DNA of 38,080 nucleotides from a virus. The DNA lies in IMG/VR virus record IMGVR_UViG_3300020156_000061, positions 1 to 38,080 of that record, one strand, 5' to 3'. Below, piece after piece: positions 3,480 to 5,828 of this stretch (positions within the stretch are counted from its first letter, which is position 1; every line of letters starts with the position of its first letter). The notes below the pieces were generated by a model, which made no database searches, was not told the DNA's origin, and saw nothing but the letters and a program-made list of their open reading frames with translations. Position numbers and translations under genes: made by a program.

Positions 3480-4913
3480 ATGGCTAAGGAAGAACTCGAA
3501 TTACCAATCGCAGAGGACGCGGAGAAATCGATACTTGGATGTATTCTTATCGGTGGTGCTGAGATTATGAAGCAAGTCGATCACATTATCACCAAGGACG
3601 ATTTCACCGATAACAAGCGCGTCATTCTGTACCGGGCACTCCGGGGCGCGTGGTTGAAACATGGCGATGTTGATTTTCTAACCGTAGTTAATTTCTTAAA
3701 AGACAAAGGTTATTACGATCAGGTTGGGGGTGGTGCGTACATCTCCGAAATGACCAATGAGGTGCCAACATACGCCCACGCGGTAACGTATGCTCGAATC
3801 GTAGCGGATAAAGCTGTGGCGCGTCGGACCATCCAGGCAGCCCAGGACATTATCAAGAACGCTTCTAAAGCGGACGATATCGAAGGCTTCATTAATTGGA
3901 GTGAGAACCGGCTAAAAGGCGTAACGCGTACAAGCGCGCGTAGTGAGGGTAGACTGGCTTTAGTTGACCTAGATGAGTGGAGAACCATTGCGCGCGAATC
4001 ACAGCCGCTAGAGGGCGAAATACGCGGCCTGAGTGTGGGTTGGCGCAAGATGGATGAGCTCACGGAAGGATTCGAGCCCGGCGAAGTAATGATTTTAACT
4101 GGCCACACCAAGCATGGTAAATCGAAACTTGCCGCAAATATTGCTTGGAACGTAGCGCAAAAAGGTACGAACGTTTTGTTTGTGAATACCGAGATGACGA
4201 AACTGCAGGTTGCCAGGCGCATGAATGCTATGAGCAAAACGGATGAAAAATTACCAGGCACCATTTACCTGAATGACCGCGCTGATTTACAGTACCGCGA
4301 CGTAATTACGATTATGGAAAACGCCAAAGAAAAAGGGTGTGGCATGGTGATTATTGACCACCTCCACTTTTTCGGCCGCAGCGTTGACAACCAGGTAAAT
4401 GAAATCAGCAAGATCACCAAAGAGTTTAAAGAGGCTGCCGTGCAATTGGAGTTGCCAGTACTGTTGCTTTGCCATATCCAGCAGGGAGATACCAGCAAGC
4501 GGCCAACACTCCAAATGCTCAAAGGCTCGAGCTCAATCGCCCAGGATGCCGACATTGTAATTACCGTATGGCGCGATGATCGGCCGAACGCACCGGACCC
4601 ACATACCACAGAGGTGATTCGCTTGGCACACCGTTCTGCAGAGCGAGCCATCACGAAAGTATACCTGTATGCGGAAGGTATACGATTGCTCGAAGAGCGG
4701 CCACCTACCACAGATCAACAACTACAATATGCCGAGGACACCGCACGGATGCTCGGAGAAAAGGATGATGACGATGCCTTTGATTTGGAAATCGGATGGG
4801 ACGAAGAGCATGAAAGTAACCGAGGAGGCGTACAAGAAACTCCAGATGATAAAAATATTCTGGCCTCCGGAGAAAAAGGTAAAGCTTGGGCGGCGCCTAA
4901 TCCCGATCGGTGA
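3480..4913 (+). CDS. dnaB: DnaB-family replicative DNA helicase
   Basis: The 477-aa product has the DnaB layout. The N-terminal helical domain (about 1-110) starts with AEDAEKSILGCILI, typical of DnaB_N. The RecA-like motor follows with Walker A TGHTKHGKSKL around residues 207-217, Walker B GMVIIDHLHF near 286-295, and KGSSSIAQDADIVI, a DnaB-specific motif. The ring helicase unwinds DNA ahead of the fork. The last ~60 residues are acidic and unlike the core. Start ATG 3480 follows AGGA at 3469-3472. No primase, loader or DNA polymerase is in the window, so these would lie outside it or come from the host. Confidence 0.93.
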   Translation: MAKEELELPIAEDAEKSILGCILIGGAEIMKQVDHIITKDDFTDNKRVILYRALRGAWLKHGDVDFLTVVNFLKDKGYYDQVGGGAYISEMTNEVPTYAHAVTYARIVADKAVARRTIQAAQDIIKNASKADDIEGFINWSENRLKGVTRTSARSEGRLALVDLDEWRTIARESQPLEGEIRGLSVGWRKMDELTEGFEPGEVMILTGHTKHGKSKLAANIAWNVAQKGTNVLFVNTEMTKLQVARRMNAMSKTDEKLPGTIYLNDRADLQYRDVITIMENAKEKGCGMVIIDHLHFFGRSVDNQVNEISKITKEFKEAAVQLELPVLLLCHIQQGDTSKRPTLQMLKGSSSIAQDADIVITVWRDDRPNAPDPHTTEVIRLAHRSAERAITKVYLYAEGIRLLEERPPTTDQQLQYAEDTARMLGEKDDDDAFDLEIGWDEEHESNRGGVQETPDDKNILASGEKGKAWAAPNPDR

Positions 4914-4965
4914 CATCTCTTTAACAAAGCCCGATACGTCTGAGCAATTAAGCTTTAGGGATTGA
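4765..4965 (+). CDS. Possible small ORF overlapping the dnaB 3' end
   Basis: A frame starting at ATG 4765 (alternative starts 4768, 4774, 4810) runs past the dnaB stop to TGA 4963-4965. GGAG at 4755-4758 precedes the first ATG. The part after residue about 16 (MKVTEEAYKKLQMIKIFW, then PPEKKVKLGRR) looks protein-like, yet most of it overlaps dnaB. Its stop codon lies inside the -35 box of the promoter at 4962. It may be a real 51-66 aa gene or only a shadow frame. Confidence 0.25.
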   Translation: MMTMPLIWKSDGTKSMKVTEEAYKKLQMIKIFWPPEKKVKLGRRLIPIGDISLTKPDTSEQLSFRD

Positions 4966-4990
4966 CTTTTTCTCCGGACTTTGTTAAGAT
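4962..4990 (+). promoter_or_regulatory. Sigma70-type promoter for the structured RNA and the following operon
   Basis: TTGACT at 4962-4967 and TAAGAT at 4985-4990 are separated by exactly 17 bases. Transcription would begin near 4996-4998, one or two bases before the first 15-nt repeat. The promoter lies just after dnaB in the largest non-coding gap, so it probably starts a second rightward transcript covering the RNA region and the genes from 5395 on. Confidence 0.75.
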
Positions 4991-4998
4991 GGGATAGT

Positions 4999-5013
4999 CG
5001 AACATTAACAATT
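4999..5013 (+). repeat. 15-nt direct repeat, copy 1
   Basis: CGAACATTAACAATT occurs here, at the predicted 5' end of the structured RNA, immediately before the first long helix. An identical copy is at 5146-5160. It could be a protein-binding linker in the RNA or an iteron-like DNA site. Confidence 0.8.
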
Positions 5014-5145
5014 CGGTTGGCCCGGGGATAGACAGGGCAGGATAGCACCTTTAAATTCCTTTCTTTTTGTTACACGTTAAAACAATTTTAGGAACCATAA
5101 ATACTAAACAGATGCCTAACCTGTCTTTCCCTCGGCCAGCCGCGA

Positions 5146-5160
5146 CGAACATTAACAATT
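5146..5160 (+). repeat. 15-nt direct repeat, copy 2
   Basis: This is an exact copy of 4999-5013. It lies between the two folded domains, three bases after domain 1 closes and three bases before the 17-bp helix of domain 2 opens. I found no third copy in the window. Confidence 0.8.
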
Positions 5161-5394
5161 TGATTTAAGTAGCCAGGGGCGCTTATGACGTGGTATATAT
5201 CCGTGGTGGACCATATGCAGATCATCATAAGCGCCAGCCGTCGGTAGGTTGATGCCCTCTTCCTGCCGGCAGTATCCTGCCAAGGACCTTCTACATATGT
5301 AGTGTCGCTCATATCAGTAGAAGCTTCACATTCGTGTGTTTTATCCTTGGCGGGACCAAGCCCCTGGCTACTTAAAAAATTGGGAAAGGATGCC

Positions 5395-5601
5395 ATGCAG
5401 GAAGAATTTGTAGTCCCTCTTACCAAAGAGGAATTCATAAAAAAAGCCGAGCCTGTTACGATTGTTGGCGCGAAAAGTGTAAAGATCGCTTTGGAAAAAG
5501 AACTTGAAAAAGTTACTACTCCGTTACAAGCTGAGATTGACTTTTTCGACCAGGTGATCGAATACAAAGAAACAGGTGAATTACCGGAAGGATTGAAGTA
5601 A
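5395..5601 (+). CDS. Small acidic hypothetical protein
   Basis: The start is ATG 5395 with GGGAAAGGA at 5382-5390. A longer frame reaching back to 5302 would run through the structured RNA and is rejected. The 68-aa product (MQEEFVVPLTKEEFIKKAEP onward) is charged and helical near the end (ALEKELEKVTTPLQAEIDFF). No family recognised. It is the first gene after the structured leader, so any control by that RNA would act here first. The TAA overlaps the next ATG by one base. Confidence 0.75.
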   Translation: MQEEFVVPLTKEEFIKKAEPVTIVGAKSVKIALEKELEKVTTPLQAEIDFFDQVIEYKETGELPEGLK

Positions 5602-5828
5602 TGACCAATCCGGACACAGAATTGCAGCGCAAACGCCTGAAAACCTTAACTAAACGGTACACTCCGGAACAACGAAAAGAGTGGGCCAGTAAGGCCGGTA
5701 AGGCGTCACCGACTAAGTTCACCAGTGACGCTGCCCGTAGGGCAAACGACATCCGGTGGGCAGCGGTACGCGCTGCGAAAGAAGCAAAACAAAAACACGA
5801 TGAAAATAAAGATTTAAAGGAGGCATAG
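5601..5828 (+). CDS. Small basic hypothetical protein
   Basis: The 75-aa product starts inside the previous stop codon, with GGAAGGA just upstream. It is strongly basic and helical: YTPEQRKEWASKAGKASPTK, then SDAARRANDIRWAAVRAAKE. This suggests nucleic-acid binding, but no defined domain is recognised. It ends one base before the next start. Confidence 0.72.
   Translation: MTNPDTELQRKRLKTLTKRYTPEQRKEWASKAGKASPTKFTSDAARRANDIRWAAVRAAKEAKQKHDENKDLKEA

Follow-up and report, generated by a model that had tools for sequence, protein, structure and literature searches.

Phage operon leaders comparable to the locus described here include put of HK022, which is approximately 70 nt in length and is not known to carry a boxA, and nut of lambda, which is composed of boxA and boxB and is associated with the N protein. 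In rrn operons, one boxA follows the promoter and another precedes 23S; boxA is tethered to RNA polymerase by NusB-S10, and each rRNA is enclosed by a leader-trailer helix (PMC10250234; PMC6614801; PMC4807359), with helices of more than 17 bp being needed (PMC10250234).

The locus lies in IMG/VR record IMGVR_UViG_3300020156_000061, the entire 38,080 nt of which are referred to as the window and supply the positions given here. A search with DnaB yielded two relatives, L005 (72% identity) and L004 (64%), and all three are IMG/VR phages. The features of the window are as follows.

4962-4990, plus strand: sigma-70-type promoter, TTGACT-17-TAAGAT, with a predicted +1 at approximately 4997
4997-5146, plus strand: domain 1 of the predicted RNA fold, with the same fold in L005
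4999-5013, plus strand: boxA-like linker 1, CGAACATTAACAATT, predicted to be unpaired except for the initial two bases, which form part of the closing helix
5146-5160, plus strand: boxA-like linker 2, CGAACATTAACAATT, predicted to join the two domains as a single strand, except for the initial base, which pairs in the closure of domain 1
5164-5376, plus strand: domain 2, a predicted four-way junction closed by a 17-bp helix
5181-5232, plus strand: predicted arm a of domain 2, GCUUAUGA (5181-5188) with UCAUAAGC (5225-5232)
5237-5272, plus strand: predicted arm b of domain 2, the L005 counterpart of which differs in length
5275-5355, plus strand: predicted arm c of domain 2, 12 bp, 5275-5286 with 5344-5355
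5382-5390, plus strand: ribosome-binding site GGGAAAGGA for the first operon gene, identical in L005
5395-5601, plus strand: first operon gene, 68 aa, function not assigned, conserved in all three phages
5601-5828, plus strand: second operon gene, 75 aa, very basic (pI 10.2), conserved, with no family match

As in rrn antitermination elements, a boxA-like element is located close to the promoter, a second copy precedes the second helix-closed domain, the 3' part of boxA (TTAACAATT) is identical, and the closing helices are long. The phage element differs from those of rrn operons in that it encloses folded domains of 150 to 210 nt instead of rRNA, T3 of boxA is replaced by A, linker 1 is situated at the very 5' end, and protein genes lie downstream. 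It shares with lambda nut a position in front of the genes of a phage operon, a boxA-like sequence, and a small basic protein encoded early, whereas it is much larger; inspection by eye recognised no boxB in it. Like HK022 put, it is predicted to be a phage 5' leader of two stem-loop domains, whereas its length across the three phages is 234 to 404 nt and it carries conserved single-stranded linkers. GOLLD and ROOL are likewise large multibranched noncoding RNAs of phages, from which the present element differs in being smaller, in being fused to an operon as a leader, in having helices that are not conserved in sequence, and in having no Rfam match.

Promoter, gene order and downstream operon

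An earlier note on this DNA had described a promoter with 17-bp spacing that runs into an RNA of about 380 nt. The promoter was found at 4962-4990 and is kept in both relatives, in which its shared form is TTGACNTTTNNTCCGRACTNNNNTAWGATGGGA, again with 17-bp spacing, and conservation among the three phages extends to a TCCGRACT spacer and to GGGA 3' of the -10 hexamer. The RNA at 4997-5376 begins at the expected +1, and promoter and RNA adjoin each other in each of the three phages. The order of dnaB, a short ORF over the dnaB end, the promoter, the element, and the same genes is also common to the three.

The short ORF in the window (4810-4965; 50 to 60 aa) overlaps the 3' end of dnaB and stops inside the -35 hexamer, and it is kept in all three phages with the core RLIPI..DI..xKP. 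Two 13-nt inverted repeats, 4866-4878/4966-4978 and 4921-4933/4975-4987, pair upstream sequence with the promoter region, which could thereby be folded over in read-through transcripts; as judged by eye, L005 lacks the first of these repeats.

Consistent with the statement of the earlier note that the RNA contains no long gene, stop-free stretches in the plus frames of the window do not exceed 43 codons. A 159-aa minus-strand ORF with a TTG start (5088-5567) overlaps the RNA region, and the ORF lists of L004 and L005 contain no counterpart of it. Given the short stop-free stretches and the lack of counterparts for the minus-strand ORF, protein coding by 4997-5376 was rejected.

In all three phages a ribosome-binding site and a gene come straight after the RNA. 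No terminator-like site separates the RNA from the gene at 5395, and the number of plus-strand terminator-like sites within the operon is not above that expected by chance. The operon encodes SSB-like and RecA/UvsX-like proteins as well as others. The product of the gene at 5601-5828 is a candidate RNA-binding partner by charge and position only; its pI is 10.2 to 10.8 across the phages, and its place in the operon is like that of lambda N.

Predicted fold and covariation

The minimum free energy of the plus strand at 4997-5376 is -150.3 kcal/mol, compared with a mean of -100.4 kcal/mol for shuffled sequences (z -8.15), and none of 100 shuffles equalled it. Domain 1 is predicted to be closed by pairing of GUCG (4997-5000) with CGAC (5143-5146), with linker 1 bulged and the apical loop large. 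The 21-of-23-pair helix and the perfect 17-bp helix noted earlier were both recovered, the former formed by 5014-5036 and 5120-5142, with C/C and U/U as its sole mismatches, and the latter by 5164-5180 and 5360-5376. A UUCG hairpin, also noted earlier, sits at 5327-5338 in the window and is not seen in the fold of the relative. The apical motif AUCCRUGGUGGACC of arm a (5199-5212) is shared with L005, although the rest of the arm has diverged; it could be a site of protein or tertiary contact. The element of L005 (6505-6908) has the same two domains, the second being multibranched (z -11.3), whereas that of L004 (6532-6765) is a shorter form composed of two simple long hairpins (z -8.6).

The earlier note had named covariation across relatives as a point on which the RNA could fail, and 19 compensated pairs were found between the window and L005. 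Among 52 aligned helix columns, these 19 differ on both sides with pairing kept, 3 differ on a single side, and 27 do not differ; in the remaining 3, one of the two sequences has a non-standard combination (one being a window pair lost in L005 and two being unpaired in the window). The double-sided changes fall in three helices. In L005, 7 of the 17 pairs of the domain 2 closing helix are changed on both sides and none is broken, with the corresponding numbers for arm c being four and zero. The maximum number of double-sided changes in 20,000 shuffles was 16, and a control with slid partners gave 2 to 8 double changes and 31 to 40 broken pairs; given that this null is simple and that the helices were picked from predicted folds of both sequences, these values represent support and not exact probabilities.

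The view that G-U pairs select the plus strand did not hold on its own for the window, in which the minus fold is almost as stable (-147.3 kcal/mol, z -7.3) and the two strand folds contain 10 and 11 G-U pairs. For L004, the plus fold has an energy of -88.6 kcal/mol with 16 G-U pairs, compared with -54.0 kcal/mol for the minus fold, a difference of 34.6 kcal/mol. Because the plus fold of L004 is far better than the minus fold, the plus strand was taken to be that of the RNA, and covariation together with this strand bias identifies the element as a plus-strand RNA with high confidence.

The earlier statement that the RNA belongs to no known family holds at the level of Rfam, with no match in the window at the gathering threshold. 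A permissive scan of 4800-5500 returned only plant microRNA noise (E values of 0.36 and 1.2), Rfam showed no match near L009 or L010, and blastn against cultured phages gave no match; the element likewise matches no protein. As a structure, it represents a new RNA family with three members so far.

Conserved linkers and their resemblance to boxA

Primary sequence is conserved mainly in the promoter, in the ribosome-binding site, in the AUCCRUGGUGGACC loop of arm a, and in the linkers that precede the two domains. The linker, of the general form GMAC(A/T)TTAACAATT, is conserved and is unpaired in the predicted folds. The copies in L005 are CGCACTTTAACAATT and CGAACATTAACAATT, whereas L004 has AGAACTTTAACAATT as copy 2 and a degenerate copy 1 (UUAAGAAU). 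The repetition at 4999-5013 and 5146-5160 had been overlooked in the earlier note. Being homologous, the linkers of the window, L004, and L005 do not constitute independent evidence.

In sequence, the linker is similar to boxA, the antitermination signal of rrn operons (TGCTCTTTAACAATT in E. coli), a likeness that was conceived only after the sequence had been viewed. The sequence CTTTAACAATT, present in L005 copy 1 and L004 copy 2, is identical to the 3' 11 bases of enteric rrn boxA. In the rrn leaders of several of the Pseudomonadota genomes sampled, TTAACAATT precedes 16S at the spacing of boxA and in every case follows (C/T)TCT; it was not found in rrn leaders of sampled Bacteroidota. A matrix was derived from 60 sampled rrn boxA elements; the search expression fixed several of its columns, so that invariance is not claimed for them. 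The matrix input required T at position 3, which penalises the phage linkers, and with this penalty the window linkers ranked 12 to 17 of 76,132 positions and were not the best in the window, those of L004 ranked 1 to 2 of 22,606, and those of L005 (22,804 positions) ranked 2 to 3 for copy 1 and 3 to 7 for copy 2.

Position 3 is A in every phage linker and T in the gamma consensus and inspected rrn elements, and the window linkers differ from boxA also at positions 2 and 5. Compared with the strict consensus GYTCTTTAANA (PMC5725501), GAACATTAACA of the window has three mismatches, GAACTTTAACA of L004 has two, and GCACTTTAACA and GAACATTAACA of L005 have one and three, respectively. C4, T6, T7, A8, A9, and A11 are kept in all linkers other than the degenerate copy 1 of L004. 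The linkers thus retain the boxA residues that have been described as critical or were mutated, namely C4 and T6 in GYTCTTTAANA (PMC5725501) and U-141 (PMC10250234). A cyanobacterial boxA, GAACCTTGAAAA (PMC8461337), indicates that GAAC is possible in a boxA. An rrn operon with GAACATTAACAATT was found neither in a species-level genome scan nor in the sampled phyla. Matches to the linker pattern in genomes and viruses, none of which is near rRNA, were rejected as chance. Because position 3 is A throughout and no host rrn operon with the phage sequence was found, the linker is best described, on its sequence, as boxA-like and not as boxA. The rrn-type layout, with a boxA-like copy before each helix-closed domain and 3' of the promoter, is fully present in the window and L005, and in L004 copy 1 is degenerate. 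The repeated linker tentatively points to antitermination of the Nus-dependent (rrn/nut) type over that of the HK022 put type.

Possible function of the leader

The rejection of protein coding, the conserved promoter, the strand bias of L004, and the compensatory changes together provide good support for a transcribed large structured RNA, a covariation-supported family with a testable mechanism. Of the earlier proposal of such an RNA from the promoter at 4962-4990, the structure is well supported, and its transcription is something that we infer. The promoter, the RNA structure, its position, and the conserved linkers are established by sequence analysis. The earlier note had considered both a cis-acting leader and a trans-acting RNA. 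The former fits better, in that no terminator follows and the ribosome-binding site and gene come directly after the element; given the lack of a terminator before the gene at 5395, it is also the simplest reading. The element thus appears to be the 5' leader of the operon from 5395, transcribed as a structured RNA of two domains.

The function that we tentatively prefer, and to which we assign slightly less than an even chance, is processive antitermination in cis, by a leader of the rrn/nut type that uses host NusB-S10, with both Nus binding and antitermination being what we infer. RNA polymerase would start at approximately 4997 and transcribe linker 1 at once, and host NusB and S10 (NusE) would bind this linker and remain tethered to the polymerase while helix-closed domain 1 folds behind it. 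Linker 2 would then renew the contact, helix-closed domain 2 would fold, and the modified polymerase would go on to read the operon. Because Nus factors at a boxA may also act as repressors, suhB being an example (PMC5725501), Nus binding would not by itself fix the direction of control.

The main alternative, which we consider somewhat unlikely, is a Nus-independent structured leader, either put-like, with the RNA contacting RNA polymerase, or one that protects the mRNA or is processed by RNase III; the linkers would then be hinges or sites for something else, such as Hfq or S1. The presence of two stem-loop domains right at the 5' end, a feature of HK022 put, the helices of 17 to 24 bp, which are plausible RNase III substrates, and the free variation of helix sequence with shape kept all fit such a leader, as does the failure of the linkers to match strict boxA (PMC5725501). 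However, conservation is higher in the linker than in the helices, the 3' half of the linker is that of rrn boxA, and domain 2, which L004 has as a short hairpin, varies in size and shape, in contrast to a precise RNA polymerase-binding fold.

An improbable alternative is a trans-acting RNA, for example one that is processed out and titrates host Nus factors or another protein, thereby lowering host rRNA synthesis. The fold is large and stable with two boxA-like sites, and there is a precedent in over-expressed nut RNA, which titrates Nus factors with a consequent fall in rRNA expression (PMC4807359), but no terminator follows the element, and in each of the three phages it leads directly to a ribosome-binding site and a gene. 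Very improbable is a translational switch in which the fold, or contact of the RUGGU loop of arm a (5199-5212) with the start region, gates ribosome access to the first gene: the loop is shared by the window and L005 and is complementary to ACCAU/GCCAU around the start codons, but only five pairs are formed, with wobbles in the window, the motif is missing from domain 2 of L004, and in none of the three phages do the closed domains include the ribosome-binding site. Least probable, with no more than a slight chance, is a DNA-level element (a replication origin or protein-binding cruciform), for which the adjoining dnaB and the near-equal folding of the two strands in the window and L005 would speak, but against which stand the 34.6 kcal/mol advantage of the plus fold of L004 with its 16 G-U pairs, the promoter exactly at the 5' end, and the asymmetric linkers.

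The mechanism of Nus-dependent antitermination, if right, would be a new variant of boxA-type antitermination, in which the phage uses an rrn-like leader instead of N protein and boxB, and it would help to separate the role of boxA from that of the leader-trailer helix in rRNA transcription. It is rather doubtful that the phage has borrowed the architecture of rRNA operons as a whole, with an antitermination leader that relies on host Nus factors, folded domains of its own, and no N-like protein. If the element acts otherwise, it would still be a large phage leader RNA missed by existing models.

Search for additional carriers

Searches for other carriers by way of DnaB, the protein of gene 6151, RecA, and RusA-like proteins recovered only L004 and L005, and RecA relatives (25 to 36% identity) have no comparable noncoding inverted repeat. 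A match to the promoter pattern, L008, was rejected as chance, being situated inside other genes. L077, an unrelated virus record (IMGVR 2868257651_000001), was left unproven as a relative, since it has one linker copy only and unrelated genes. It contains a noncoding region of approximately 690 nt within 4300-5000 on the minus strand, in which GCACATTAACAATTC is followed by a hairpin of approximately 25 pairs and then by other long helices (z -5.9), and it also encodes a BstXI-like endonuclease.
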